NCBI GenBank assembly: GCA_022826645.1
Contig: JAJDUM010000096.1
Coordinates: 1 to 64,000, forward strand
Direction of reading: 5' to 3'
Length of the DNA: 64,000 bases
Source of the DNA: Candidatus Poribacteria bacterium
GTDB taxonomy: Bacteria; Poribacteria; WGA-4E; PCPOR2b
A program made the translations under genes and the position numbers. Below are positions 3,428 through 57,870 of this stretch, in pieces (position 1 is the first letter of the stretch; every line of letters starts with the position of its first letter). Under the pieces are notes generated by a model. That model did not search any database, was not told the origin of the DNA, and saw only the letters and a program-made list of their open reading frames with translations.

Positions 3428-4318
3428 ATGAAACTGACAACCCAGCAAATTGAAAAGTTCAAAAGAAAAGGTGTGTTAATCGTTAAGCGTGTCGTTGAAG
3501 AATCTGAGTTGGATCCTGTGATCAACGAGCTTGAGACTTGGGTGGACAGGCGGGCGTGTGAGCTGGTTTCGGAAGGGAAAATTCAGAACCTGCATCCTGA
3601 TGCGTCCTTTGATACCCGTTTTGGACTCCTTTTCCAGCAGTGCAAGGAGATCGGCGATGGACTCGACATCAGTGCATCTCGCGGTAAAGCAATGTTTGAG
3701 TTCTTACATAACAGAAACCTGCTCGATACTGTTGAGCCTCTCATTGGTCCTGAAATTACTTGTAACCCTATACAACATGCTCGTACCAAACCGCCGACAG
3801 CATACGAGGGAGGCACGGGCCCCTCGTTCCATGTCGTCCCTTGGCATCAAGACGCAGGTGTGATGATGCCGGAAGCAGAGGCATCGAACATTGTAACCTG
3901 TTGGTTACCGCTGGGAGACGCGACGATCGAGATGGGATGTATGCAAGCACTTCCCGGTGTTTTCCATCACGGCTATCTCAGCCACTTTAAAGAGGAAGCA
4001 GCGACGGTTACAATACGGCCTGAAGTACTTCCCTCCGTGGCTCCGATGGATCTTGTCTGCTATAAGGGTGATATGGTATTGTTGAATAAATTTACCCCAC
4101 ACCGTTCCGTTCCCAACGTATCGGATAAATGCCGCTGGTCTTTGGATCTTCGGTACCAGACTACTGGCCATCACACCGGCAGAACAGCGTATCCATCGTT
4201 TATTGTGCGATCCCCGACCAATCCCGCAAGTGTCCTGCGCGATTATGACGAATGGTGTCGGCTTTGGACTGATGCACTTGAAAATCCCAAAGGGATATCG
4301 ATGCACCGGACAGACTAA
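3428..4318 (+). CDS. Phytanoyl-CoA dioxygenase (PhyH) family protein, canonical HxD
   Basis: Predicted Fe(II)/2-oxoglutarate-dependent oxygenase of 296 aa with a PhyH double-stranded beta-helix fold. The iron ligands are visible: H140 and D142 in WHQDAG, and a distal H225 in TPHRS. Arginines at about 236-242 could bind the 2-oxoglutarate carboxylate. The ATG at 3428 is preceded by AAGGGAAA. The substrate cannot be read from the sequence; the family hydroxylates many small molecules. The next gene, 61 bp downstream on the same strand, is a DapA/NanA-type lyase, so the pair may act on one substrate. One of six PhyH genes in the window. Confidence 0.87.
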   Translation: MKLTTQQIEKFKRKGVLIVKRVVEESELDPVINELETWVDRRACELVSEGKIQNLHPDASFDTRFGLLFQQCKEIGDGLDISASRGKAMFEFLHNRNLLDTVEPLIGPEITCNPIQHARTKPPTAYEGGTGPSFHVVPWHQDAGVMMPEAEASNIVTCWLPLGDATIEMGCMQALPGVFHHGYLSHFKEEAATVTIRPEVLPSVAPMDLVCYKGDMVLLNKFTPHRSVPNVSDKCRWSLDLRYQTTGHHTGRTAYPSFIVRSPTNPASVLRDYDEWCRLWTDALENPKGISMHRTD

Positions 4319-5282: not shown

Positions 5283-6110
5283 TCAGCTGGTCCAACAGTC
5301 CGGCGTGTAGGCGGCGCGTGAGAACAATTTTTTCCGAGCGGGATCGGCGCGTTCAATCCAATCGGCGGGAATTTCCTGCGTGTAACGGTGGGGCGGTCCT
5401 GCTTCTTTGAAAATGTCGATCAAAAAAAGTCTGAATGGCTGCGGGGAGTCCAACGGTTTCGGTTCTACACCGTGAAACATTCGCGCATTGAGATAGACCA
5501 TGCTTCCCGGCGGCAATTCCAGATGTTTAACCGCAAGTTCACGCCCAGCAACAGCGTCAAACTCTCCTGCCAGCAGCCTCTCCGGCGTGACGTCCTCCGT
5601 TGGTGGAACACGATGACTGCCAGGAATGACTGATAGGCTTCTGTCTCCCCGTGTGAATCCGTTCGGATAATAGAGGATTTGAATATACCATTTATCCCTT
5701 TCAGCAAGATTGACGGGGTTCTCATGACGCCAATGGTGATGGTCTTGATGAAAGCCGAGCTGCCCGACACCGCGCGGGGCGATATTCATCGCGGAATGAC
5801 AGAAATGGTAATCGGGACCGATTGTAGCTTGCAGCAGCGCCGTGACAAGCGGTGCGTCGATAAGTTGGTCAGCCCATGGACCTCTGTCGTTCCATGGCCT
5901 AACGAAATATACGGCTGGATCGCTCGGTTTGCCCTGCTCGGCCTCTAAAGTTTGGAGATATTCACGAGCGCCATCCAGATTGAGTACCTCATCGGTTAAT
6001 GCTGAAAGTGCCTCCTCCGTAAAAACCTCAGGTATGGCAATATAGCCGTCCCTATGAAAATCTTCAAGATTTTCCTCCGACGGAGTATCAATGCGAAATA
6101 GTGGACTCAT
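5283..6110 (-). CDS. Phytanoyl-CoA dioxygenase (PhyH) family protein, canonical HxD
   Basis: Predicted Fe(II)/2-oxoglutarate oxygenase of 275 aa. H121 and D123 (GFHQDHHH), the distal H213 (MFHGV) and R227 (FRLFL) form a full ligand set, and IPGSH at 162-166 is a typical core motif. The start lies 12 bp after the stop of the Gfo/Idh gene, so the two are probably co-transcribed as oxidoreductase plus dioxygenase. Substrate unknown. Confidence 0.87.
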   Translation of the reverse strand: MSPLFRIDTPSEENLEDFHRDGYIAIPEVFTEEALSALTDEVLNLDGAREYLQTLEAEQGKPSDPAVYFVRPWNDRGPWADQLIDAPLVTALLQATIGPDYHFCHSAMNIAPRGVGQLGFHQDHHHWRHENPVNLAERDKWYIQILYYPNGFTRGDRSLSVIPGSHRVPPTEDVTPERLLAGEFDAVAGRELAVKHLELPPGSMVYLNARMFHGVEPKPLDSPQPFRLFLIDIFKEAGPPHRYTQEIPADWIERADPARKKLFSRAAYTPDCWTS

Positions 6111-33367: not shown

Positions 33368-34495
33368 CTACCGGAACCAGTCATAATTGAGCCCCAAAGA
33401 TCTGTCCGTTAGCGGTAGATCTACTCGGGCACCGCCCTGCGCCGAAGACTGTTTAAGCGCAATCTCAACTTCAAGTGCGATCGCAACTCTTCGTCCAGAA
33501 TTCTTAGGTTCATCGAGCCTACCCTCCATGCAGTCTATCACATCTGCTAATCCGTAGATTGCACCGTAAGGACCGACAAATTGAGGATCGGGCCATGGGA
33601 CTTCTATCCTGCTAACACCGCTGGCTGTTTCGATGTCCTGCCACAGTTTAAACCCAGTTGCCATGGTGGGAATAACTATTTCACCCGCGGTGCCGGTTAC
33701 ACGCAGGTGCGGTGCGCCCGGTCGAAAGTAGACCGCTATTTCATTGTGTGTAACCATTAAGCCCTGCCCCGCAAATTCGTCGCTCCCACCAGGTCCCTTG
33801 AATTCATCGGTGCCACTACCCCGTCGTTGCTGGTCACCAATACCGATAACCCAAGCAGGCGAACTATCCAGAAAATAGGACCAACTCTGATGCTGCGCGC
33901 CGGGTCTTGGTGCCTCAATCGAGAGGATATTGCCAATCGCGCCACCATCAATTAATTCCTTCGCCTTTCCGAATGATGGATGAGTCGTCGATATCGCGCC
34001 ACAATTGAGCGGGACACCGGCGTCGGCGCAGACTTTAACCATCCGGTCAGTTTCTTCAAGCGTGTGTGCCATCGGCTTTGCCGTTACAATTCCCTTCGCG
34101 CCGTTCTCAACTGCCAAACAGGTCAGGTCAGCTCGTCCCTTAACGTTCGTGGCAACAGCGACGAGATCCAGATTTTCCGTACGTAGCATTTCCACTGCAT
34201 CAGTATAGAGCGCGTTGATACCATAACGTTCCTTGAATGCCTCTAGGCGTTTCTGGTCACGATCCGCGGCAGCAACCAAAGCTACGTCAGGACGGTTCCA
34301 AAACGCCTCTGAATAACTGGTAGGTAAACCTTCCTTGCCGGGGTGATCATGGTGATAGATTTTCCGATAAACATCCAAATTCGGTGTGGGGCGATCAATG
34401 TCATTGATATTGAAAAAATCTCCGATTCGCGTCGCCATGTCGTAAAGCATTCCCATCCAACCCAGACCTATGACTCCTGCACGATATCTTGGCAT
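33368..34495 (-). CDS. Gfo/Idh/MocA family oxidoreductase (paralogue B)
   Basis: 375 aa. Rossmann motif GVIGLGWMGMLYD; AKP (GIVTAKPMA) where paralogue A at 16322 has EKP. The two proteins align along their whole length. This copy carries a short insertion near residue 235 that looks like a tandem duplication of a GxDEFxGxG unit. Likely NAD(P)-dependent sugar dehydrogenase. It is convergent with the small membrane protein gene. Confidence 0.85.
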   Translation of the reverse strand: MPRYRAGVIGLGWMGMLYDMATRIGDFFNINDIDRPTPNLDVYRKIYHHDHPGKEGLPTSYSEAFWNRPDVALVAAADRDQKRLEAFKERYGINALYTDAVEMLRTENLDLVAVATNVKGRADLTCLAVENGAKGIVTAKPMAHTLEETDRMVKVCADAGVPLNCGAISTTHPSFGKAKELIDGGAIGNILSIEAPRPGAQHQSWSYFLDSSPAWVIGIGDQQRRGSGTDEFKGPGGSDEFAGQGLMVTHNEIAVYFRPGAPHLRVTGTAGEIVIPTMATGFKLWQDIETASGVSRIEVPWPDPQFVGPYGAIYGLADVIDCMEGRLDEPKNSGRRVAIALEVEIALKQSSAQGGARVDLPLTDRSLGLNYDWFR

Positions 34496-34546
34496 ATTGG
34501 ATTTCCTTCATGATGTAAACCTGTACAAAGCCAGTGTGACAGGTGA

Positions 34547-34942
34547 TTATTTTTTGGGCTTTCCGCGATAGGTTTCTTGCATCATTCCCGCAAAGGTCAT
34601 GATATCTTGTTGAAAAGCCTCCGTAAAATCCCCTGATTCCTTGGTATCTGCGAAACGAGTGAATACAGTTTCTAACGCTTCCACAAATTGCTCTGATTTG
34701 CCTTCATCTGCCGCCTGTTGTTTCAGTTGTTGAAGGATTGTCATCTTCGCTGCTTTTTCCCGTTCTGATTGCACCTCTTGTATTGATTTATCGAAAGTAA
34801 CACGCAGCGTTTCGACAATGTGGTATGCCATCGAACGGTTATATTTCTGTGAATCGCGTTTAGCGCCCTCATAAATGTCCATAGGTAGCAATAAGCTAAT
34901 TTGCTTCTTTAAGGAATCTTTTGGCTGGCGATATTCTTTCAT
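34547..34942 (-). CDS. Small putative DNA-binding protein (ribbon-helix-helix-like), unknown
   Basis: 131 aa. The N-terminal 50 residues (KKQISLLLPMDIYEGAKRDSQKYNRSMAYHIVETLR, here shortened in quotation) have the strand-helix-helix pattern of ribbon-helix-helix proteins; the rest is helical and charged. The ATG follows GAGGAA. It lies next to the tyrosine recombinase in a visibly AT-richer stretch, so it may be part of the same inserted element. No firm family. Confidence 0.55.
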   Translation of the reverse strand: MKEYRQPKDSLKKQISLLLPMDIYEGAKRDSQKYNRSMAYHIVETLRVTFDKSIQEVQSEREKAAKMTILQQLKQQAADEGKSEQFVEALETVFTRFADTKESGDFTEAFQQDIMTFAGMMQETYRGKPKK

Positions 34943-35080
34943 CTAATTCCTCTGAGTTTAATATATTAGAGTCAGAGTTATAGTTAAAATAAGTATTATT
35001 GGGTAATAGTATAACACCACAATGCAAAAAATTACAGTAAAATATTTCAAGCAATAGAATGGTCACTATTGTTCAACATA

Positions 35081-36013
35081 CTACTCCCATGATATGCTTT
35101 CCATAGTAATATGTAAATCATGTTCTGTAGGCATAGTGTAAATAGCTGTTGTATTAACATTGGAATGACCTAATATTTTTGAAACTCTATCAATGGGTTG
35201 ACCAGCGTCAATAAGGTTTTTTGCACAAGTATGCCTAAACACATGAGGAGACAGATTATCTATTTTTGCTTCATAGGCATATTTGTGTATAATGTATCGA
35301 ACACCACGGTCTGTCAAGGGCATCCGTTTCTGCCCATAAAAGAGAAAACGCTCCCTTTCAGGGCTTGCACCGATTATGCCTGTTGGATGTTTGGATCCAT
35401 CTAATGCGTTGAGGTAATCCTTCAAAACCCGTATGATACTTGAGTTTAATGGGATATTGCGTCGTTTCGTGCCTTTGCCCTCACGGACCGTAATCATATT
35501 GCTATTAGTTGATATTCTAATATCGGAAACTCGCAAATTACAAAGCTCGCTCACACGCATTCCGGTATGCAGCAGCATCGTAATAATGGCTAAATCCCTG
35601 AGTTTTCCCGATCTCCGTACTGCTCGTAACAACGCCAGCTGCTCTTTGCGCTCCAAAGCCCGAGGGGCAAGCGGCTCTTCGGCGACAGTTCGTATGCCTT
35701 CAGCAGGATTATTTAGTATGAGGTCATTTTGTTGTGCCCACTGGCAAAAGCTGGATATGCTAATTAGGCTACGGTTAATCGTCGATGGCTTTTTACCCCA
35801 GTCTAACAGGGCGTTCCGATACTCGATGATCTCCATTGGGGTAATACTATCGAGGACGAGTGCTGCTCCGTTGATATGTTGGAACCAACGCGAAAATGAG
35901 CGAAGATCTGTCATATAGGCTTTGACGGTCTGCTCAGATTTATCTTGATCATAAAGATAATCGCGGTAATCTTGGAGTAATTCCTCCATTTTGTGTGTCT
36001 CCTTATCGGACAT
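35081..36013 (-). CDS. Tyrosine recombinase (XerC/XerD-like integrase)
   Basis: 310 aa with an N-terminal SAM-like core-binding domain (about 8-100) and a full catalytic set: R153 (HTGMRVSEL), K181, H257 and R260 (SPHVFRHT), H283 (LGHSN) and nucleophile Y292 (AIYT). It could be a chromosomal Xer or the integrase of an element. The AT-rich setting, the small DNA-binding neighbour and a 9-6-9 palindrome upstream (36102-36125) favour a mobile or site-specific system. The first codons (ATGTCCGATAAG) belong to a sequence repeated twice more upstream. Confidence 0.88.
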   Translation of the reverse strand: MSDKETHKMEELLQDYRDYLYDQDKSEQTVKAYMTDLRSFSRWFQHINGAALVLDSITPMEIIEYRNALLDWGKKPSTINRSLISISSFCQWAQQNDLILNNPAEGIRTVAEEPLAPRALERKEQLALLRAVRRSGKLRDLAIITMLLHTGMRVSELCNLRVSDIRISTNSNMITVREGKGTKRRNIPLNSSIIRVLKDYLNALDGSKHPTGIIGASPERERFLFYGQKRMPLTDRGVRYIIHKYAYEAKIDNLSPHVFRHTCAKNLIDAGQPIDRVSKILGHSNVNTTAIYTMPTEHDLHITMESISWE

Positions 36014-46961: not shown

Positions 46962-48458
46962 ATGGGGAAGGAAATGGGAGCAGCGCAGCGATTCTTAGCA
47001 TTCGATCTTGGCGCGGAAAGTGGACGAGGTGTGCTCGGGTGTTTCGATGGCGCAAAGCTCAAGTTAGAAGAGTTACACCGCTTTCCAAATGGGGGCATCC
47101 GCGTCTTGGATAGCTTACACTGGAATGTCTTGCATCTCTGGAACGAGATGAAGGCTGCCCTCTCGGTCTGCGCGCAGAGAGATATAGAGCTTACCGGAAT
47201 TGGGGTTGACACATGGGGCGTAGATTTCGCTTTACTTGGAAGGGGCGACGAGCTACTGGGCTTGCCTTATCACTATCGCGATGCACGCACCGATCATATG
47301 TTGGAAGAAGCTTTCCAGCGGCTTCCTCGATCAACCATCTTTGAGCGGAGTGGCTGTCAGTTCCTTCAGATCAACACCCTCTATCAGTTACTATCGATGG
47401 TTGTGCATAAATCTCCTCTACTCGACGTTGCCGAGACATTTCTGATGATTCCTGACCTTTTCAACTTCTGGTTAACCGGACGCAAGGTGTGTGAATTCAC
47501 GAACGCAACGACGACACAGTTCTATGATCCCCGAAGGCAGCGTTGGTCCACGGAAATCTGTGACGCACTCGCTGTGTGTTCGGAGATACTGCCAGAGATT
47601 GTGCAGCCGGGGACGCGGCTTGGCACGCTGCTACCGTCCGTTGCAGCAGAAACGGGGCTGCCCGAAATACCGGTTATCGCGCCAGCTTGCCACGACACCG
47701 GTTCAGCAGTCGCCGCAGTGCCAGCGGAAGGAGACAACTGGGCGTATATCAGTTCCGGTACATGGTCACTGATGGGGATTGAAGTTTCAGCACCGATCGT
47801 CACCGATCAGGCACTTACGCTCAATTTTACTAACGAAGGAGGCGTAGAAAACACATTCCGTTTCCTCAAGAATATCATGGGACTCTGGATTGTGCAGGAA
47901 TGTCGGCGAACGTGGGCGCGAGTCGGCAATGAAATGTCATATCCCGAAATGACACAACTCGCCGAAAACGCCCCGCCATTCTCCGCACTTATCGATCCCG
48001 ATGACGATATTTTCCTGCCGCCAGGTGACATGTCATCACGGATCATTGAATACTGTAAACGCACAGGACAAACCCCACCTTCCGGCCTCGGGGAGACCCT
48101 TCGATGCGCTTTGGAAAGCCTTGCCCTCAAATATCGATGGGTTCTGAAACAGCTGGAATTGGTCCGCGGACGATCAATTGATGTGGTTCATATTGTCGGA
48201 GGAGGTGCCCAGAACCATACCCTCTGCCAGTTTACAGCGGATGCAACTGGTACGCAGGTTATTGCTGGTCCTACCGAGGCGACAGCACTCGGAAATATCG
48301 TGATGCAGGCGATCGCCTGTAATTCAATCGGATCCATTGCTGAAGGGCGAGAGATTATCCGGCGGTGTTTTAATATTATAACCTATGAACCCCAAGAATC
48401 GCAGCGGTGGGATCAGGCATACGGACGATTTCTGGAAATAGCAGAATTGGAAGCCTAA
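46962..48458 (+). CDS. rhaB: Rhamnulokinase-like FGGY-family carbohydrate kinase
   Basis: 498 aa. FLAFDLGAESGRGVLG is the phosphate 1 motif in the form typical of RhaB; IGVDTWGVDFALL, YHYRDARTD and SSGTWSLMG are also RhaB-like; VHIVGGGAQNHTLCQFTADATG is the adenosine region. RhaB phosphorylates L-rhamnulose. A start at ATG 46974 would be four codons shorter. No rhaA or rhaD is in the window, so a related deoxy- or keto-sugar is possible. Confidence 0.88.
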   Translation: MGKEMGAAQRFLAFDLGAESGRGVLGCFDGAKLKLEELHRFPNGGIRVLDSLHWNVLHLWNEMKAALSVCAQRDIELTGIGVDTWGVDFALLGRGDELLGLPYHYRDARTDHMLEEAFQRLPRSTIFERSGCQFLQINTLYQLLSMVVHKSPLLDVAETFLMIPDLFNFWLTGRKVCEFTNATTTQFYDPRRQRWSTEICDALAVCSEILPEIVQPGTRLGTLLPSVAAETGLPEIPVIAPACHDTGSAVAAVPAEGDNWAYISSGTWSLMGIEVSAPIVTDQALTLNFTNEGGVENTFRFLKNIMGLWIVQECRRTWARVGNEMSYPEMTQLAENAPPFSALIDPDDDIFLPPGDMSSRIIEYCKRTGQTPPSGLGETLRCALESLALKYRWVLKQLELVRGRSIDVVHIVGGGAQNHTLCQFTADATGTQVIAGPTEATALGNIVMQAIACNSIGSIAEGREIIRRCFNIITYEPQESQRWDQAYGRFLEIAELEA

Positions 48459-48500: not shown

Positions 48501-49316
48501 ATGTTGACTGATGAGGAAAAATGGTTTTTTGACCTGCACGGCTATCTGGTGCTCAAGCAAGCTGTCCCGAAGGAAGATGTGAAACGTATGGTTGGATTAT
48601 GCGATGTTTGGCACAGTATGCAAGACAGTGAGCTGCCAGCACCGCTAAGGAGTTATCATGATGTAAACACCAAGCCGACGACACCGCGATCGATCAATAA
48701 TGTGCCCTACGCTGACGAAGTATTCCAACGCCTTGTTCTCAATCGGGAGATTATGCGGGCGGTACTTGCACTGACAGACAACTCGCCACAGTTGCTCTCG
48801 GTTGCACTGGTACGAAATACGAAGGAATCAGATGATATTCCGTTTCACGGCGGCTTTTCAGGCGGCATTCGGAGTCCCGCAAACGACTACCAAGCTGCGA
48901 ATGGGCAGGTCTTTGCAACCTTTCTTAACGCTGGGGTTTCGCTGGTAGATGTACCAGCCGGAACTGGGTTTGTGTGCATCCCGGGCAGCCACAAATCGAA
49001 TTTCCCAAAACCGGATGGTGTGAATATCTATGATGGTCCACCCACAGTGGCTAACGTCAATGTGAAGGCAGGGGATGTGGTGCTGTTTACAGAAGCACTC
49101 TGCCACGGTGCACGCCGCTGGACGCTTGACGAGCCGCGCCGGAACGTGTTTGTTCGTTACAGTACCTCCTACGCCTCTTGGTCTCCCGGGTATGGCCCGA
49201 TCGAGGAACATCGAGACAAACTCCCAGACGACATCTATGAGCTGCTCCAAATGGCATCTTCCCAACACAGGAAACGGGTGGTAAACCAGTTACTTGCAGG
49301 GATAGGGGAGCAGTAG
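48501..49316 (+). CDS. PhyH-family protein with HxG in place of HxD (halogenase-like metal site)
   Basis: 271 aa of the PhyH superfamily, with CIPGSHKSNFP at about 159-169 and distal H202 (LCHGARR). The first iron motif reads H116-G117-G118 (FHGGFSGG), so the usual Asp two residues after His is Gly. In characterised Fe(II)/2-oxoglutarate halogenases (SyrB2 has HxA, WelO5 has HxG) this change opens a halide site. An alternative is a subfamily with altered or lost metal binding. AAGGAG precedes the ATG. It lies 42 bp after rhaB and before a methyltransferase gene. Closest in motifs to the gene at 53747-54559. Confidence 0.82.
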   Translation: MLTDEEKWFFDLHGYLVLKQAVPKEDVKRMVGLCDVWHSMQDSELPAPLRSYHDVNTKPTTPRSINNVPYADEVFQRLVLNREIMRAVLALTDNSPQLLSVALVRNTKESDDIPFHGGFSGGIRSPANDYQAANGQVFATFLNAGVSLVDVPAGTGFVCIPGSHKSNFPKPDGVNIYDGPPTVANVNVKAGDVVLFTEALCHGARRWTLDEPRRNVFVRYSTSYASWSPGYGPIEEHRDKLPDDIYELLQMASSQHRKRVVNQLLAGIGEQ

Positions 49317-49352
49317 GTTCGTCACTCTAATTTTCGTGCACGGATTGGAATA

Positions 49353-50048
49353 ATGTCTTCAGAAATACTGCTTCAACAGATTAAGAGTCGTTATCCCGTT
49401 GCAGAGAAGACCATCCCGATGATTGCCAATCCGATCCGTATGACGATAGTTGACGATCCGGATCAATTGCTTGATGCCTTGAGTAAGGAGGATCAGTGTG
49501 GTGTGCTGCATCTCCCCTATTGGACTTACTTATGGCCCTCTGCGATCGGTCTCGCGCGATATCTTGGTTCGGACGATGGGATTTACGGGGAGCGAGTCTT
49601 AGAAATCGGCTGTGGGTTTGGGCTTGCAGGGATTGTGGCGTGTCAAAGCGGCGGCATGGTCCTATTTACAGATTATGAACAGGACGCACTCGCGTTTGCT
49701 CGATATAACACTTTACGAAACGGGTGTGCTGACAAAGCATGTTTTGTGCAAATGGACTGGAACACGCCTTGCTTGAAGGGTAAGTTTGCGCGTATCATTG
49801 CCTCGGATGTGATTTATGAAGACACACACTGGACTCCGATTTTAGAGATGCTTCAGACTCACTTGATTCCGGGTGGCGAGGCGATTTTTGCAGAACCGAC
49901 CCGAACAAGTGCTGCTGGTTTCCTTGACCGGCTCAGTCGTTATGGGTTTACATACACCAAACGGATCAGCGATGTTGTTGGTCTGGACGGAGTCGTATTC
50001 AAGATATCCATCTATTGTCTGAAGCAGGACAGGGACGCCCCTCCCTAA
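49353..50048 (+). CDS. Class I SAM-dependent methyltransferase
   Basis: 231 aa. VLEIGCGFGLAGIVA is the SAM-binding motif I, followed by LFTDYEQDALAFARYN (acidic residue binding ribose) and ASDVIYED (motif IV). The layout is that of the Methyltransf_16/lysine methyltransferase-like family, which methylates proteins or small amines. Its stop overlaps by 4 bp the stop of the convergent small acidic protein gene. Confidence 0.82.
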   Translation: MSSEILLQQIKSRYPVAEKTIPMIANPIRMTIVDDPDQLLDALSKEDQCGVLHLPYWTYLWPSAIGLARYLGSDDGIYGERVLEIGCGFGLAGIVACQSGGMVLFTDYEQDALAFARYNTLRNGCADKACFVQMDWNTPCLKGKFARIIASDVIYEDTHWTPILEMLQTHLIPGGEAIFAEPTRTSAAGFLDRLSRYGFTYTKRISDVVGLDGVVFKISIYCLKQDRDAPP

Positions 50049-50290
50049 CCCACTTCATAACGGAGATCAATGTGAACCCTGTCCTCAAGTGCATCCGCAA
50101 GCATCAGGTGCAGCTCCTGATCACAACCATTCTCTGCCAAAAAACTCAAGGCTTCTGAATCAATGTAATAATCCTGATCCTCAACTCCCGCTTCCTCCAA
50201 GTTGTCGATGAGAAATTGTACCTGATCTTCTGTGACTATACCGATTTCGTCGTCGTGTTCAATGTCTATCAATCGATACATCTGGACCAT
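50045..50290 (-). CDS. Small acidic protein of unknown function
   Basis: 81 aa from ATG 50290, preceded by GGAG. Very acidic (IEHDDEIGIVTEDQ; EEAGVEDQDYYID), no Cys-pair or membrane helix. It lies 70 bp after the sulfatase stop and may be the last gene of that operon. A longer start would run into the sulfatase gene. Family not recognised. Confidence 0.6.
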   Translation of the reverse strand: MVQMYRLIDIEHDDEIGIVTEDQVQFLIDNLEEAGVEDQDYYIDSEALSFLAENGCDQELHLMLADALEDRVHIDLRYEVG

Positions 50291-50360
50291 ATTCGTCTCC
50301 GACTGTCGCTGATTTCCACAAGCTGACACGGAACCGTTACCCGTAATTTCCCGTATCGCG

Positions 50361-51854
50361 TTATTTGGGGTACGCGGCAAGATGTGCCTGCGGAGTTCCA
50401 TGCTGGTAGTCACCATCGCAAGCATCGAGCATCCACGCTTTTAACTGCTCGACAATTTCCGGATTATCTTTTGCAAGGTCATTCTCCTCGCGATAATCCT
50501 GATTCAAATCGTATAACTGAAAGCTATCCTCACTGTTGACGTAGCGCAATTTCCAATTATCCTGCGTGACCAAAGCGGGACCTTGCCAAGAAGCATATAT
50601 GATAAACGAATGGGTCTGTTGCACGTCAGATCTCCCAAGTAATGTTGGCAAGAACGAAAGCCCATCCTTTTCGTGGGGTAATTCCGCGCCGATGAGTTCA
50701 GCGAGTGTTGGCATGAGATCATAATTTGTCAGGATATGGTCTGATAGGCTACCGGGATCAATTCTGGTGGGCCAACGGACAAGATAGGGGATTCGCGTCC
50801 CGCCCTCCCAACTGGACCATTTCAAGCCGGCCATGCCGTCGTTTCCGTTAAACACATCGCCGCCCGATTCAGAGTAGAATTTCGTTCTGATGTTATCAAA
50901 GGCTTCGCCCTCAAGATTCTCTGTGCGGCCGGAAGTTCGTCCTTGTTGAAGGGCGTACACCTCATGACCGTTGTCTGAACAGAACACAATCATAGTTCTG
51001 TCGTCAATTCCAAGTTGCTCAAGTTCTTCCAAGATGAGTCCAACTGTTTCATCGAGTTTGAGGATCATTGAAGCGTATTCCTTCTCGTATTCCGTGAGGT
51101 TCGGATTGTGCTTTACAGCTGGATGAATCTCCGGGACAGCGATGGGACCGTGCGGCAACTGTGATGGATGGTACAGGAAGAAAGTTTGGTCCTTGTGTTT
51201 GCGCAGGAAGGCGAGAATTTTTTCGTTGAAAATATCTTGAGAATACACCGCCTTTCCCCTCTGATCTGAGCGAATCGCCGCGTTCTCTGGTGACTCCCCG
51301 TCCAGATGTACGCCACAATCGGCTCGCGTGTTTCCACGAATGTAGGATAATTCACCGTTCTCAAAGAGGAAGGGCGGATAAAATCCGTGACAACGCGCAT
51401 GGTCATACCACCCGTAATGATAATCCCATCCGTGGCGACGGATTCGGTCGCTTGTCGTATCAAAACCCCACTCCAACTTACCGATCTCTCCCGTTACGTA
51501 ACCGGCCTCTTGGGCAAGCTGAGCGAGAAATATCTCATCTGGAGCGGCTTGCAGACCGGTTGTATGGATAAGCTCTGTGATCTGTGCGAGCGTCATCTCA
51601 CCTGTGCTGAGTCGCTTATAGACACTCCCTTGGGTATAGGTCCAAGTGCCGCGGTGGCAATCGTGAAGCCCCGTCATCATGCTGGCACGTGATGGTGCAC
51701 AAAAAGCGCAGCCGTAGGCTTGTCGGAATTGCACACCTTCGCTGGAGAGACGATCAATATTGGGCGTCTCGAAATGCTGCTGTCCATAGCAGCTGAGCAT
51801 TCCACGACCGAGATCGTCGCCGTAGATGAGAATGACATTTGGTTTATCCGTCAT
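50361..51854 (-). CDS. Arylsulfatase-type sulfatase
   Basis: 497 aa from ATG 51854. D13 and D14 (YGDDLG) bind the metal, and C52 in CAPSR is the Cys converted to formylglycine. VFCSDNGHE and TRIPYLVRWP follow. No signal peptide, so it acts inside the cell or depends on another export route. It would remove sulfate from a carbohydrate or other ester. It follows two PhyH genes and a ThuA-like gene in one operon. No sulfatase-activating enzyme is in the window. Confidence 0.9.
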   Translation of the reverse strand: MTDKPNVILIYGDDLGRGMLSCYGQQHFETPNIDRLSSEGVQFRQAYGCAFCAPSRASMMTGLHDCHRGTWTYTQGSVYKRLSTGEMTLAQITELIHTTGLQAAPDEIFLAQLAQEAGYVTGEIGKLEWGFDTTSDRIRRHGWDYHYGWYDHARCHGFYPPFLFENGELSYIRGNTRADCGVHLDGESPENAAIRSDQRGKAVYSQDIFNEKILAFLRKHKDQTFFLYHPSQLPHGPIAVPEIHPAVKHNPNLTEYEKEYASMILKLDETVGLILEELEQLGIDDRTMIVFCSDNGHEVYALQQGRTSGRTENLEGEAFDNIRTKFYSESGGDVFNGNDGMAGLKWSSWEGGTRIPYLVRWPTRIDPGSLSDHILTNYDLMPTLAELIGAELPHEKDGLSFLPTLLGRSDVQQTHSFIIYASWQGPALVTQDNWKLRYVNSEDSFQLYDLNQDYREENDLAKDNPEIVEQLKAWMLDACDGDYQHGTPQAHLAAYPK

Positions 51855-51923
51855 GTTAAACGTTTCCTTTCCACTTAGCATAAAACCGGTGGAAATTATC
51901 CCGCAATTTTGATCTAGGTAGTT

Positions 51924-52733
51924 CTATGTCCAACGGGTGACCATCTTGGTGCGCGGGTCTTCACCGCTACCAATCTCCTCATGGCGAAAAAGTTGTTTGG
52001 CACGTTCTGACAGGGCATCATAGGTATCTTGGCGAATGCCGATCTGAGGATACATTGTCTTAAACCACGAACGCGCGTACATCAGTGCAATGTTCGGACG
52101 CGGTTCATCTGAGATGTTAGGGGTGCCACGGTGCCACATCCGTGCATCCCGAATGAGCAGAGAACCCGCCGGCATAAGAATCTGCTCGGAATGCATAATC
52201 TTTGATAGGTTTTCGACATCAATACCGCTCGGCATCAGATGTGTGCCGCCGGGCCAAATTTCCATCGCGCCGTTCTCCTTGCGAAACTCGACCAAAGGAA
52301 TGTCTAAGACAATACAGTAGACCGGGGACGGAGCGTCTATCTCTGGAAAGAGTTGATGAATATCAGAATGGGTGGGCTGGTAGTCGGAGCCCGGAAGTGG
52401 CGTATTATTTCCCAGATAATGGCAGATACAGTTTTCCCCCAATAGCTGGTCAATCACGGACAGAACGATCGGATTACTTACCACGTCCGGATGGTTGAAC
52501 GGCGTCTCGAACGGCAGATGCATCTGCCACCGTTTTGCCCCGCGATTGGGGGCATTTTCTGCGATATTTGCATTTAAGAGTTCCATATAGCGTGCACGAA
52601 GTTCATCAACAAGGTCTTGAGACAGTACCGATTCAAAAACAGTGTAGCCGTTCATTTTGATCTGCTGAAGCGCAGTGTCAAGCGTTTCGGCAGTTAGGGT
52701 TTTGGTATCGTGTTCATAAGCATTCAGTTTCAT
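51924..52733 (-). CDS. Phytanoyl-CoA dioxygenase (PhyH) family protein, canonical HxD
   Basis: 269 aa. H122 and D124 (THSDIH), distal H201 (MWHRGTPN) and a following Arg complete the iron and 2-oxoglutarate site. It sits between the ThuA-like gene (60 bp upstream) and the sulfatase gene (69 bp downstream), so it probably oxidises an intermediate of the same pathway. Confidence 0.87.
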   Translation of the reverse strand: MKLNAYEHDTKTLTAETLDTALQQIKMNGYTVFESVLSQDLVDELRARYMELLNANIAENAPNRGAKRWQMHLPFETPFNHPDVVSNPIVLSVIDQLLGENCICHYLGNNTPLPGSDYQPTHSDIHQLFPEIDAPSPVYCIVLDIPLVEFRKENGAMEIWPGGTHLMPSGIDVENLSKIMHSEQILMPAGSLLIRDARMWHRGTPNISDEPRPNIALMYARSWFKTMYPQIGIRQDTYDALSERAKQLFRHEEIGSGEDPRTKMVTRWT

Positions 52734-52793
52734 CTAATCTCCTCTACGGTTTCTGACTTCTAGCGGATGGATAACAGATCGCCCAGCTCCAAA

Positions 52794-53735
52794 TCAGAGG
52801 CTAAAATCACACGGTCGCATTCCTCTTTTGAAGGTGCCGAAGCCGAAGAAAGTGGGGTTATAATCCTTCACATAACCGACTTGGCTTTTGGAGGGAATCT
52901 GATTCTCCAATCCCATGCACCAGTAGCAAGCGTTTACCAACAGACGGCGCAATCCTTCGCTCTCTAGATCTACCGAAGCACCCATTGTAGTGCAGAAAAC
53001 ACGCGATTCTTTCCCTTGGTCGCCTGTGTAAGTTTTGAGCCATGCTAGCGGCATCGTAGGGGTGTCAGCCTTCGGCGGATCGGATGGATCCATTCCGACA
53101 AGCACCTGACCATGGAGCAGTACCTCGGGGGTTCCTGCTAATGTAGTGGTGCCGTAAACGTCGGTTGGTCCCCACACATCTTCGACTCCTTTGAGGACCG
53201 GGTGGGTGCGCATGTCCGTGTTAATGACTCCGCGTGTGCTCTCTTTGCCGTGATGCCCATGATGGTTAATCCAGGTCTCGCCCAAGACTTGGCGTCCGTA
53301 CCCACCCTCAAACTCCTCACTGTTGAAACTGTACTTAGCATAAGGGCTTTGTAGGTCCCTTGAGTAACTGAAGGCGTGTGTTGCGGTACGCAAACCCATA
53401 ACCGGTCGCCCCGAATTGGTATAGTCAACGATATATCTCATTTGATCATCGGGCAGTTCACGGAAGCGGGTGAAAAGCATCATCATATCGGCGTCAATGA
53501 GGTTATGAAGTCCGGGAATGTTGGTTTGTTCCTCCGGATTAATTTCTCCGGTTTCCGTATCGATTGCGAAAAGGACTGTGCACTTGAATCCGTGATGGAC
53601 GGCAAGAATTTGGCCAAGCAGTGGCAGTGCTTCTTCAGAACGATATTCTTCGTCACCACTGACGAGGACGATGTGTTTTCCTGCTCCTACCCCTTTACTG
53701 CCTTCATATACAATCCAATTTTCAGATCTGTCCAT
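52794..53735 (-). CDS. ThuA-like (trehalose utilisation/glutamine amidotransferase-fold) protein
   Basis: 313 aa. HIVLVSGDEEYRSEEALP at the start, ADMMMLFTRFRELPDDQMRYIVDYTNSG in the middle and GETWINHHGHHG are typical of the ThuA-like fold, which resembles class I amidotransferases. ThuA-type proteins are linked to disaccharide use. GAGGAG before the ATG; it starts 11 bp after the PhyH gene. Confidence 0.82.
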   Translation of the reverse strand: MDRSENWIVYEGSKGVGAGKHIVLVSGDEEYRSEEALPLLGQILAVHHGFKCTVLFAIDTETGEINPEEQTNIPGLHNLIDADMMMLFTRFRELPDDQMRYIVDYTNSGRPVMGLRTATHAFSYSRDLQSPYAKYSFNSEEFEGGYGRQVLGETWINHHGHHGKESTRGVINTDMRTHPVLKGVEDVWGPTDVYGTTTLAGTPEVLLHGQVLVGMDPSDPPKADTPTMPLAWLKTYTGDQGKESRVFCTTMGASVDLESEGLRRLLVNACYWCMGLENQIPSKSQVGYVKDYNPTFFGFGTFKRGMRPCDFSL

Positions 53736-53746
53736 GTCACTCTCCT

Positions 53747-54559
53747 CTATTGTGTCCGGTACAGTTTAGATCCTTTATCTTCCCTACGATATTGTGGTGC
53801 GGAGATGACGGCTTTTTGGGCATCGGTCAGTTCATCGTAGAACGGCGGCGGTGTGTAATCACCCATCAACGACTCACCCATAACTCCAGAGTTATAACGG
53901 ATAATCACGGAGCGACGTTGGTGTTCGGCAACCCAGGGAAGTCCGCCATGCATCAGGCATTCGACGAACAGAACCGCATCGCCAGCCTTGGCTGGGATTT
54001 GGACGATTCGATCTTTGTATGTATGATAAAGTCGAATATCGTCAGGGCAAGGAAAGTTTGCCTTATGACTACCGGGCAAACACGCAAAACCGCCATCTTC
54101 GGGACCCACATCGGTCAATTGAACTGCGAAGTTCGTCATTCCACAGTACATTCGACCGTTACGGTAGAGGAATCCTCGTGAACGATCGAACGGTTCGCCA
54201 CCTTCGTGAAACCAGAAACCTTCCGCTCCTTCGTCCATTGTGATCATGCTAAGGCCTTCCAGTCGGAATCCGGGACCCAGCAACTCCTCCAGATACGGAG
54301 TGAGTTTAGGATGGGCAATCATCTGTCGGAACACGTTGCAGTGTGGCTTGTCCCACGTCAACATGCCTCCTAGATCGCCACGTCCGGTCTTACCGCGCAA
54401 CGTTGTGGATCCATTGGCAAGGTCATTTGGGCGAATACTAATCTGGTCTGCATGATGATCGACTGCGGCATTCGCTGCCTCTACCTCCTCAGGTGACAGG
54501 GCATTTTCTATTATCAGATAACCGTGCACATCAAACAGATATTTCTCTGCGTCCGTCAT
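53747..54559 (-). CDS. PhyH-family protein with HxG in place of HxD (halogenase-like metal site)
   Basis: 270 aa. H118-E119-G120 in FWFHEGGEP replaces HxD; distal H204 (LMHGG) and CLPGSHKANFP are present. As in the gene at 48501, the Asp position is Gly, the substitution seen in Fe(II)/2-oxoglutarate halogenases; a non-halogenating subfamily is the simpler alternative. It is the first gene of the operon PhyH-ThuA-PhyH-sulfatase, with promoter at 54649-54677 and GAGGAG before the ATG. Confidence 0.82.
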   Translation of the reverse strand: MTDAEKYLFDVHGYLIIENALSPEEVEAANAAVDHHADQISIRPNDLANGSTTLRGKTGRGDLGGMLTWDKPHCNVFRQMIAHPKLTPYLEELLGPGFRLEGLSMITMDEGAEGFWFHEGGEPFDRSRGFLYRNGRMYCGMTNFAVQLTDVGPEDGGFACLPGSHKANFPCPDDIRLYHTYKDRIVQIPAKAGDAVLFVECLMHGGLPWVAEHQRRSVIIRYNSGVMGESLMGDYTPPPFYDELTDAQKAVISAPQYRREDKGSKLYRTQ

Positions 54560-54794: not shown

Positions 54795-55652
54795 CTACTC
54801 ATCCGCGGTGTCTTTTTCCGTCGTGACGCGAGCGGAACGTATTATCTTGCGGAAGTCTTCATAAGCCATGCCCACTGACCGGATCCATCGCCAATTGCAA
54901 TCTGCGAGTGTCATGCTATACCCATCTACGCGTTCTGGTTTCCCCTTCTCCCACGGTGTTGGGGGCCAGACTGTGTGCCCATTCTTAGTACAGACCTGTA
55001 GCCGTCGATCATCAAGTTGGAGATGAACTTGACGCTCATCCACCCACTGCGCCCTCAAGCGGGATTGAAACATGGCTGCACCGGTCCCGTCATGGCACTG
55101 AAAAAGCCACGCCTCCACGTCGCAACCATCAATCGAGATGATCTCCCAGCGCCGGGCACCGTACAAGAATCGAGAGTCATAAACAGTCATATCGAATCGC
55201 ATCTTTGGGGGACAGCTCAGTCCGAGATATTCGGCGAAGGCACCACCGTATCCGGGGACACATCCCTCGAAAGATTCTCCCCAGAGTTCCGAGGTTACTG
55301 TAGCCGTGTCTAACTGCAGCTGGTGTCCAGATATGTGATTGTGAAAATCCGATGTAAGGCGACGGTAATATTCACGCAGATCGCCATTTTCAGGAAACGG
55401 GGTCCGTGGATAGAAGACAGCGGCTTCACCAAGATTCTCAACTGCGCTCTCTTTCAAATATTCGGGACCACCCAATTGAAGGAATAGAGTATTTTCCGGT
55501 CGCTCAGAGAGGTTTCGAAGCCAATGCTGCTTTACCTGTTCCTCCCTTTGGACAAAGAGAGAGAGGTTGTCTCTACGGATGGTATTGGCGTCGAGGTTTT
55601 CGTAGCAGCATGGGTGAATTAAAAAGATTATGTGCTCAATTCTCATTTTCAC
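54795..55652 (-). CDS. Protein of unknown function
   Basis: 285 aa, no signal peptide or membrane helix. It opens MKMRIEHIIFLIHPCCYENL, with a His-Pro-Cys-Cys near the start, and has ELWGESFEGCVPGYGGAFAEYLG and RRWEIISIDGCDVEAWLF. The C-terminal half is Trp-rich. No family recognised. It lies 32 bp downstream of the RspA-like dehydratase gene, so it is probably part of the PhyH-RspA transcript starting at 57870. Confidence 0.68.
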   Translation of the reverse strand: MKMRIEHIIFLIHPCCYENLDANTIRRDNLSLFVQREEQVKQHWLRNLSERPENTLFLQLGGPEYLKESAVENLGEAAVFYPRTPFPENGDLREYYRRLTSDFHNHISGHQLQLDTATVTSELWGESFEGCVPGYGGAFAEYLGLSCPPKMRFDMTVYDSRFLYGARRWEIISIDGCDVEAWLFQCHDGTGAAMFQSRLRAQWVDERQVHLQLDDRRLQVCTKNGHTVWPPTPWEKGKPERVDGYSMTLADCNWRWIRSVGMAYEDFRKIIRSARVTTEKDTADE

Positions 55653-55684: not shown

Positions 55685-56926
55685 TTACGGTCTGATTACC
55701 GTGCCGTCCGCGCGCCTCGCATCACCCCACAGCTTGGCACCCCCAATATCTTGTGCAGGGAAGCGTGCCGCAAGTTCCTCGTTTATATCTACTCCTATTC
55801 CAGGTTTACCGTTGGGCCACATGTACCCGTCGCGCAGTTCGGGGGTTCCGGGAAAGACCTCTTTCAAGGTTTCATGGGTGTTAAGGTAGACCGAAGCCTC
55901 CTGAATACCGAAATTCCACACGTTCATATCGAGCATGAGGTTAGCGGCGTGCCCGACAGGAGACACATCTGCCGATCCATGCCAGGCGGTGCGGACGTTG
56001 AATGCTTCGCACAACGCCGCGAGTTTACGCGCTGGTGTTAAACCTCCTATGGTCGAGATGTGCACGCGAATAAAGTCAATCAGCCGATCCTTGATCATCG
56101 GCACGATCTCTTGGGGATTGCTATACAACTCTCCCATCGCGATCGGTACGCTGGTCTGTTGACGCACAAGGCGGAAGTAGTCGTTGTCTTCCGGCGCAAA
56201 CAGGTCCTCCAAGAAAAATGGTCGGTACTGCTCTAACTTCTTTGCCAAAGCGAGTCCCTGAATAGGTGGCATGCGTTCATGTAGGTCATATAGAATTTCT
56301 GGAGTTGGACCGAAGGTTGTGCGGAAGTGTTCAAATGCCGCCACAACATCTTGCGCGTACGGTACTGGCTCAAAGATGCTCACTCTGTCATCGGAGACTT
56401 TTTTGGTGATGACAACCGGCGCTTGATGCGGACGCTCCTGTGATGATGAGGGGTGCATCGCACCGAGTTTGAAATAGCGGAATCCCCGTTCCTGGAGTTC
56501 ATGGATGTGTTCCTCGTATTCTACAAGGTCACGTCCGTTAGGGATTATGTAGACAGCTGCAGCTTCCCTCGATTTCCCACCAAACAGCTCGTACACCGGC
56601 ATCCCTGCAACCTTGCCCTTGATGTCCCATAGCGCTTGATCTACACCACTGATAGCGTTGTTAAGAACGGGACCATAGCGCCAATATGCGGAGACGTTGC
56701 ATGACTGCCATATATCCTCAATATCAGCCGGATCCTTGCCCACAAGAAAGGGGGTGAGATAATCATTCACTGCGGAGGCCACAGCGGTCGGTCTTGAGAA
56801 AAACGAAGCGCATCCCAGACCGTGCAATTCCGGTTCGTTGGTTTCGACTTTCACAACGATGAGGGTTCGCGCTCCCGGTGGTTGAGTGATAATAGCGCGG
56901 ACATCCCGAATTTTTAGGTTGCTCAT
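55685..56926 (-). CDS. Mandelate racemase/enolase superfamily dehydratase (RspA/mannonate dehydratase-like)
   Basis: 413 aa. LYDLHERMPP (Asp ligand), FFLEDLFAPED (Glu), AMGELYSNP (Glu) and TAWHGSADVSPVGHAAN (His) are the metal and catalytic positions. MWPNGKPGIGVDINEELA ends the protein. It fits the RspA/D-mannonate dehydratase branch, which dehydrates sugar acids to 2-keto-3-deoxy acids. Preceded by a PhyH gene 50 bp upstream. Confidence 0.87.
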   Translation of the reverse strand: MSNLKIRDVRAIITQPPGARTLIVVKVETNEPELHGLGCASFFSRPTAVASAVNDYLTPFLVGKDPADIEDIWQSCNVSAYWRYGPVLNNAISGVDQALWDIKGKVAGMPVYELFGGKSREAAAVYIIPNGRDLVEYEEHIHELQERGFRYFKLGAMHPSSSQERPHQAPVVITKKVSDDRVSIFEPVPYAQDVVAAFEHFRTTFGPTPEILYDLHERMPPIQGLALAKKLEQYRPFFLEDLFAPEDNDYFRLVRQQTSVPIAMGELYSNPQEIVPMIKDRLIDFIRVHISTIGGLTPARKLAALCEAFNVRTAWHGSADVSPVGHAANLMLDMNVWNFGIQEASVYLNTHETLKEVFPGTPELRDGYMWPNGKPGIGVDINEELAARFPAQDIGGAKLWGDARRADGTVIRP

Positions 56927-56976: not shown

Positions 56977-57870
56977 CTAAACACAACCGGGGAACTCCTT
57001 TCCACGGATCAGAGGCCAGCCGTTGACCGGCTCTTGCCCTACGAGGCAATCTAACTGTTTAATGCGTTCGGTTTCTTCCGGCGTACCGATATAGCGTGTA
57101 TCGGCTGAAACGTAGTGCATAGACCAGCCGCGCCTGCGGTAGGGCGTTGTGTTCGGACCGCTGCAATGCAGCGCAAGACTGTGATGGAAGGTAGCGTCAC
57201 CAGCTGTGAGGGGCACTGCCACCTCTTGAGCAAGGACCTCCTCTGTCAACATGTACGGTAAGTGATCCCAGTTGACAAGACCGAAGTTGTGGCTGCCCGG
57301 AATAAAGCGCACACAACCATTTTCCGGTGTTGCATCGTCGAGCAGGAGTTGACAGGTAACTTGGAAGTTGCTTGCAAAGAAGCCCCAAAACACAGAATCC
57401 TGATGATAGCGGTTGGCGCGTGCGTATGGTGGTTTGGCAAACACTTGATCATAGTAGAGTTTGATGTTTGATCCCATAAGGTCGGCGACAATATCAACAA
57501 TTTTTGGTGAGCGGACGAAGGTATCAAAGACGGAATCGTAGCGGGAAGGCACGTTCATCTTGTTTACAGCATCGATCGGATCTGTAAGCGGGGCGCTGCG
57601 CTGTGTTTCGTAATTTTCTTCACCTTTCGGAAAAACTTGGGTGCCGCGTCGATTATGCTGACTTCCATGTTGTGTAGGTGGTTCGGGTATTTGTGTTGAC
57701 CCTGGCTTGAGGCGAGATATGTGTCGCTCTGGAAAATTGGGTGCGCCTCCTAATACGAGGTTAGCGTAGTGTTCCCGTAGGGTGTCAAGTTCGTCGGGCG
57801 AGATCAAATTCTTGACGACGATGTAGCCATCTTTGAAGAACAATCTTTTTTGTGCGTCGTTGAGTCCCAT
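56977..57870 (-). CDS. Phytanoyl-CoA dioxygenase (PhyH) family protein, canonical HxD
   Basis: 297 aa. H156 and D158 (RYHQDSVFWG), FIPGSHNFG and distal H235 (LALHCSGPN) form the site. GAGGAAAGG precedes the ATG. It leads a likely three-gene transcript with the RspA-like dehydratase and the unknown 285-aa protein. Promoter at 57947-57975. Confidence 0.88.
   Translation of the reverse strand: MGLNDAQKRLFFKDGYIVVKNLISPDELDTLREHYANLVLGGAPNFPERHISRLKPGSTQIPEPPTQHGSQHNRRGTQVFPKGEENYETQRSAPLTDPIDAVNKMNVPSRYDSVFDTFVRSPKIVDIVADLMGSNIKLYYDQVFAKPPYARANRYHQDSVFWGFFASNFQVTCQLLLDDATPENGCVRFIPGSHNFGLVNWDHLPYMLTEEVLAQEVAVPLTAGDATFHHSLALHCSGPNTTPYRRRGWSMHYVSADTRYIGTPEETERIKQLDCLVGQEPVNGWPLIRGKEFPGCV

Follow-up and report, generated by a model that had tools for sequence, protein, structure and literature searches.

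The two genes and their iron-site motif

The first 64,000 nucleotides of contig JAJDUM010000096.1 from a Candidatus Poribacteria bacterium (GenBank assembly GCA_022826645.1), hereafter the window, carry two genes, P0001 and P0002 (Table 1), whose products are new members of a branch of the PhyH family typified by HygX, in which the iron site has lost its carboxylate ligand. Membership of the family (PF05721, curated cut-off 22 bits) is clear for both, with scores of 39.6 bits for P0001 and 65.2 bits for P0002. The predicted iron ligands of P0001 are H116 and H202, with G118 at the position of the usual Asp, E198 four residues before the distal His and R213 eleven residues after it; the corresponding residues in P0002 are H118 and H204, G120, E200 and R215. 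An earlier interpretation based on the DNA letters alone (the sequence-only reading) had described FHGG in P0001 and FHEGG in P0002, a retained distal His in each, and HQD or HSD in four other PhyH proteins of the window; its residue numbers are right, and the four other proteins comprise three with HQD and one with HSD. To that description can be added the strand of the second gene, which had not been given: P0002 reads on the minus strand, the plus strand of the same interval being interrupted by stops. An Asp ligand two residues after the proximal His (position H+2) is really absent from both proteins. Both thus display the two His and the lack of Asp or Glu at H+2 that mark Fe(II)/2-oxoglutarate halogenases, and they also display the HygX-type motif, namely H-x-G without a carboxylate at H+2 together with a Glu four residues before the distal His, hereafter Glu(-4).

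Table 1. Coordinates of the two genes, their motif codons (computed from the gene starts) and other features of the window; L001 to L004 are close Poribacteria loci.
Feature	Coordinates	Strand	Remarks
P0001	48501..49316	+	PhyH protein, 271 aa, FHGG
P0001 H116-G117-G118 (H-x-G) codons	48846..48854	+	
P0001 E198 to H202 (Glu-x3-His) codons	49092..49106	+	
P0002	53747..54559	-	PhyH protein, 270 aa, FHEGG
P0002 H118-E119-G120 (H-x-G) codons	54200..54208	-	
P0002 E200 to H204 (Glu-x3-His) codons	53948..53962	-	
ThuA-like protein	52794..53735	-	34 bits, cut-off 33.4; downstream of P0002; kept in L001-L004
PhyH protein with HSD	51924..52733	-	Pfam; downstream of P0002; kept in L001-L004
Sulfatase	50361..51881	-	Pfam; end of same-strand run; in L001 and L002, not L003 or L004
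FGGY carbohydrate kinase, rhamnulokinase-like (below equivalog cut-off)	46962..48458	+	directly upstream of P0001; beside P0001 in L003 and L004
Protein of 285 aa without Pfam match	54795..55652	-	lies between P0002 and the MR_MLE gene; present also in L001, L004 and, in part, L003
Enolase-superfamily (MR_MLE) dehydratase, ManD-like (below equivalog cut-off)	55685..56926	-	
PhyH protein with HQD	3428..4318	+	
PhyH protein with HQD	5283..6110	-	
PhyH protein with HQD	56977..57870	-	

Conservation among orthologues

The carboxylate-free state is conserved in the orthologues of both proteins. H-E-G is found in all 35 P0002 orthologues (L001-L035, 71-99% identity), whose assemblies are titled Poribacteria, Latescibacterota, Gemmatimonadota, Planctomycetota, Handelsmanbacteria and Zixiibacteriota, and H-G-G in 9 of the 10 P0001 orthologues retrieved (67-94% identity), the tenth, L103, being unread by the motif pattern; as the motifs are maintained to this extent, they reflect more than chance. 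The closest P0002 relative, at 99% identity, lies in another Candidatus Poribacteria assembly with a matching surrounding gene order (L001), while L036, at 47% identity, is a paralogue with HGS. A sister group of P0001 (53-56% identity) carries S at H+2 in 12 and A in 5 of the 17 loci that could be read out of 19. P0001 and P0002 are not obligate partners: by the thresholds applied, one genome (G017) has P0002 and no P0001 match, and two others (G008 and G023) show the reverse. A search for viral relatives of P0001 returned 12 pattern matches, none of which was confirmed, and PHROGs gave zero matches.

A carboxylate-free clade within one genome

The genome from which the window comes holds at least 151 PhyH matches (150 of 251 candidates were scored). 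The domain set used here was built from 174 matches by setting aside one fragment of 173 residues and splitting two fused proteins, which gives 175 domains from 173 proteins and may be incomplete. A proximal His followed by D or E at H+2 is present in 140 of these domains, and 35 are devoid of the carboxylate, three of them lacking the proximal His as well. A single clade of 37 members (FastTree support 0.94) holds all 35 carboxylate-free domains, so that the simplest reading of the tree is that Asp was lost once within this set. Gly is not fixed across this wider H-x-G group, a point that the sequence-only reading had raised as a check, because H+2 varies among the 32 carboxylate-free domains that keep the proximal His (17 Gly, 6 Ala, 4 Ser, 2 Asn and one each of Gln, His and Arg). 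When HygX is included in the tree, it falls with all 35 carboxylate-free domains in a clade of 38 (support 0.86) or 39 (0.93), HygX being represented by fragments only and the sampling covering one genome. EasH was left out of the carboxylate-free counts as a misaligned fragment.

Two clade members carry D at H+2 in the motifs HGD and HAD (L041, contig C8 at about 70006, and L053, contig C67 at about 27303); these may be Asp regains or loop acids, and in L041 the distal His is replaced by Tyr. Two further members are fused two-domain proteins of 516 and 518 residues (L048, contig C43 at about 87023-88357, and L050, contig C61 at about 33825-35159), the first domain of which has V or S instead of the proximal His in both cases and Trp instead of the distal His in one; they look like a degenerate domain fused to a possibly active one.

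A glutamate before the distal histidine

Of the 37 domains of the clade, 31 carry Glu(-4), against a single one among the 138 domains outside it. Sorted by carboxylate instead, it occurs in 29 of the 35 carboxylate-free domains and in 3 of the 140 others, two of these three lying inside the clade. A realignment of the clade that includes HygX has Glu here in 32 of 38 rows and an acidic residue in 35. A two-by-two test of Glu(-4) against Asp loss gives p 7e-24, a value that counts related domains as independent and cannot be read as a probability. The association would rather represent one co-occurrence kept through deep divergence than many independent ones, as Asp loss and Glu gain may have been a single event.

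This raises the question as to whether another acid has taken over the role of the lost ligand, which the sequence-only reading had named as grounds for abandoning its proposal. The alignment places no Asp at a true ligand position: acidic residues occupy at most 15 of the 38 rows in any column of the loop between the proximal His and the L-x-D strand, and a loop acid can be set aside. The Asp of the L-x-D strand itself (D150) is also present in the canonical PhyH proteins of this genome, in an alignment judged by eye only; the D of the P0001 NDY motif is N in L117 and L119 (2 of the 17 sister-group loci read); and E119 of P0002, a Glu at H+1, is absent from this position in all the other carboxylate-free domains of the set of 35. 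Of the 37 rows with a residue eleven positions after the distal His, 35 keep the Arg of this position, Arg(+11), and the most conserved positions include both His, this Arg and an SHK segment. We take Arg(+11) to correspond to the residue that binds 2-oxoglutarate in PHYH. Because no loop acid replaces the Asp and Arg(+11) is retained, an active two-His enzyme is plausible on sequence grounds.

Nearest known relatives

In profile comparisons with solved structures, whose P0001 and P0002 alignments have rows in common, HygX comes first with E-values of 3.1e-22 (P0001) and 1.6e-22 (P0002), the next matches standing at 1e-8 and 4e-9, respectively. SyrB2 reaches 2e-5 and 8e-7 over its C-terminal part only. 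In the fold comparison, HygX is the best match for P0002, and there is a tie for P0001; the 50 fold matches listed for the two proteins include no halogenase (SyrB2, WelO5 and BesD among those looked for), an absence that is uninformative by itself. TlxI is found among both the sequence and the fold matches.

HygX from Streptomyces hygroscopicus (PDB 4xc9, 4xca, 4xcb and 4zpi) shares with P0001 and P0002 their clade, H-G-G at the Asp position and Glu(-4), and is their best sequence match. It differs by a structural identity of about 23-27%, by an unlike loop after the proximal His and by its role in hygromycin B biosynthesis, whereas the neighbours of P0001 and P0002 look catabolic. HygX is deposited as an "oxidase/hydroxylase", and its crystals contain, according to the structure titles, iron, or else nickel together with 2-oxoglutarate and hygromycin B. 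The abstract of its main paper reportedly mentions variation in metal coordination in HygX. By comparison, the halogenases SyrB2 and CytC3 (TIGR01762) have a PhyH-like fold, two His and no carboxylate at H+2, but carry an HQA motif and Ser at the position aligned with Glu(-4), and SyrB2 and CytC3 match far more weakly, over the C-terminal part. The hectochlorin halogenase HctB has two His and, in the numbering given in a passage of PMC6218459, a Glu four residues before the distal one and near the halide; however, HctB consists of three domains, and its substrate is a fatty acyl chain bound to a carrier. Human AspH, described in part of PMC10947486 as a two-His Fe(II)/2-oxoglutarate hydroxylase with H-x-G, resembles the present proteins in the metal site only. 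The PHYHD1-type 2'-O-methyl nucleoside demethylases are PhyH proteins with proven oxidative activity, one of them from Poribacteria; Asp loss is not among the features that PMC12709175, in part, reports for them.

Oxygenase, relocated ligand, partner or halogenase

We put at roughly 0.6 the probability that P0001 and P0002 are active two-His Fe(II)/2-oxoglutarate oxygenases of the HygX-type branch, whose Asp ligand was lost long ago. The assignment follows from the missing carboxylate at H+2, the retention of both His and Arg(+11), the clade shared with HygX and the clade-specific Glu(-4), and it agrees with the alternative that the sequence-only reading had kept beside its own proposal, a differently liganded subfamily, which fits best. 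In such an enzyme, the iron would be held by the two His and 2-oxoglutarate, the vacated Asp site would be filled by water or a substrate oxygen hydrogen-bonded by Glu(-4), and a ferryl species would abstract a hydrogen, the outcome being an oxidation without halogen, such as hydroxylation, ring closure or demethylation. Less firmly, and by analogy with HygX and from the neighbouring genes, the substrate is perhaps sugar-derived. Several observations weigh against this reading. Passages of PMC2767507 report that removal of the Asp abolished hydroxylation in P4H, without creating a halogenase, and likewise in TauD, which by analogy counts against a simple two-His hydroxylase. Glu223 of HctB, being His227 - 4, falls exactly at the Glu position of the clade, a point on the side of halogenation. 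As for the sugar-derived substrate, sulfatase genes lie within 5 kb of 5 of 35 branch genes and 11 of 136 other listed PhyH places (within 10 kb, 5/35 versus 20/136), and enolase-superfamily genes within 3 kb of 7/35 versus 18/136 (within 10 kb, 12/35 versus 39/136), so that neither can serve as a mark of the branch; these counts used 29 of 32 sulfatase and 96 of 101 enolase-superfamily matches, and the 35 branch genes include the two Asp-bearing clade members. The sugar inference drawn from neighbours is weak since neither gene type is clearly commoner near the branch.

Glu(-4) could itself be an iron ligand, the triad being relocated and the reaction an ordinary 2-oxoglutarate-dependent oxidation. 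The near-confinement of this Glu to the clade and the lack of any consistently acidic loop column speak for it, as does the HctB model (PMC6218459, in part), which places the residue near the halide and hence near the vacated site. Yet HctB binds halide at its iron in spite of this Glu, Glu(-4) is missing from 6 of the 35 carboxylate-free domains, and its count is not independent evidence if Asp loss and Glu gain were one event; a relocated triad is therefore unlikely, if the most serious of the competing proposals. We regard as improbable that one or both proteins lack oxygenase activity and act as structural partners, perhaps of each other, in the way that TlxI presumably stands beside TlxJ. 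The presence of TlxI among the matches, the divergent pairing of the P0001 and P0002 orthologues in two distant loci (L025 and L028) and the two fused clade proteins whose first domain lacks the proximal His are consistent with such a role. Both His, Arg(+11) and the SHK segment are nonetheless among the most conserved positions, HygX of the same clade binds metal and 2-oxoglutarate according to its structure titles, and a P0001 orthologue (at least 58% identity) is present in only 4 of the 11 searched genomes that carry P0002.

In halogenases, chloride or bromide occupies the Asp site and is then transferred to the substrate radical, and the sequence-only reading had taken H-x-G in P0001 and P0002 as a pointer to this chemistry, with carboxylate loss as its marker. 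H-x-G is not diagnostic of halogenation because AspH, which has it, hydroxylates, and FIH keeps some activity when its Asp is changed to Gly (both from passages of PMC10947486). SyrB2 and CytC3 nevertheless likewise lack the carboxylate while retaining both His, and residues at H+2 are small (G, A or S) in 27 of the 32 domains with a proximal His, the other 5 having N, Q, H or R. Halogenation is also kept alive because HctB shares Glu(-4): a section of PMC6218459 gives His111 and His227 as its iron ligands, puts Glu223 close to the halide in a computational model and calls this Glu unusual, Ser or Lys standing there in other halogenases. By analogy with this model, the Glu(-4) position of the clade would lie by the vacated carboxylate site. 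Against this stand the variable H+2, the Ser of SyrB2 and CytC3 at the Glu(-4) position and the closest solved relative, HygX, itself H-x-G and a non-halogenase, which leads by many orders of magnitude in the profile comparison. Moreover, TIGR01762 (chlorinating enzyme) matches neither P0001 nor P0002 at E 1e-3, and the 48 matches that it has below threshold in the genome all lie outside the clade genes, two of them being HxD genes of the window. We take this model to cover SyrB2-type enzymes, and it may miss WelO5 and other halogenases; AspH presumably sits in another branch of the superfamily. The halogenase reading is thus not supported, and it is improbable for the two genes. Bolder still, and a long shot, is the notion that the whole Glu(-4) clade, with 35 genes here and relatives in several phyla, has a non-standard iron site with Glu behind an exchangeable ligand in the manner of HctB, and that part of the clade consists of halogenases of free sugar-like small molecules.

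Significance of the branch

Genome mining flags halogenases by H-x-G or H-x-A, as in a passage of PMC11186838. Used alone, this flag would yield many doubtful calls, since the carboxylate-free branch makes up 35 of 175 PhyH domains examined in one genome and the one member found to have a solved structure is deposited as an oxidase/hydroxylase. The branch is a test case for how a 2-oxoglutarate oxygenase functions without a carboxylate ligand, since the Asp loss goes along with a Glu close to the distal His. The PhyH expansion of Poribacteria is already published, mostly without function (PMC3909097, in part); no publication on the present branch was found by title or abstract, most subscription journals lying outside the search.

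Gene neighbourhood

P0002, the ThuA-like gene, the HSD-bearing PhyH gene and the sulfatase gene follow one another on the same strand, separated by 11, 60 and 42 bases. The view that P0002 heads an operon with them is plausible as far as strand and spacing go, but same-strand genes also lie upstream, the nearest 235 bases away: the 285-aa protein, the ManD-like dehydratase, a PhyH protein with HQD and two xylose-isomerase-like barrels. Much of the gene order of the window is maintained in four close Poribacteria loci (L001-L004), all four of which keep the order P0002-ThuA-PhyH, with the sulfatase in two. The linkage of P0001 and P0002 seen in the window recurs in at least 4 of 36 P0002 loci, and a divergent pair in at least 2 more, several loci having short flanks.

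In the divergent pairs, the orthologues are neighbours about 170 bases apart (L025, 2384-4160, and L028, 2525-4302). These loci are far from Poribacteria (L025 is titled Gemmatimonadaceae and L028 "bacterium"), and the remaining gene order of the window is absent from them. An enolase-superfamily gene recognised by Pfam abuts the P0001 orthologue in L025, and a gene with the same beginning is present in L028. Together, the neighbouring genes and the divergent pairs weakly suggest that P0001 and P0002 serve a shared pathway for sugar-like compounds. Besides its PhyH proteins, the whole genome (G000) has some 100 matches to the enolase superfamily (MR_MLE_C) and some 30 sulfatases, which for a size of 6 Mb is a very large stock of catabolic enzymes.

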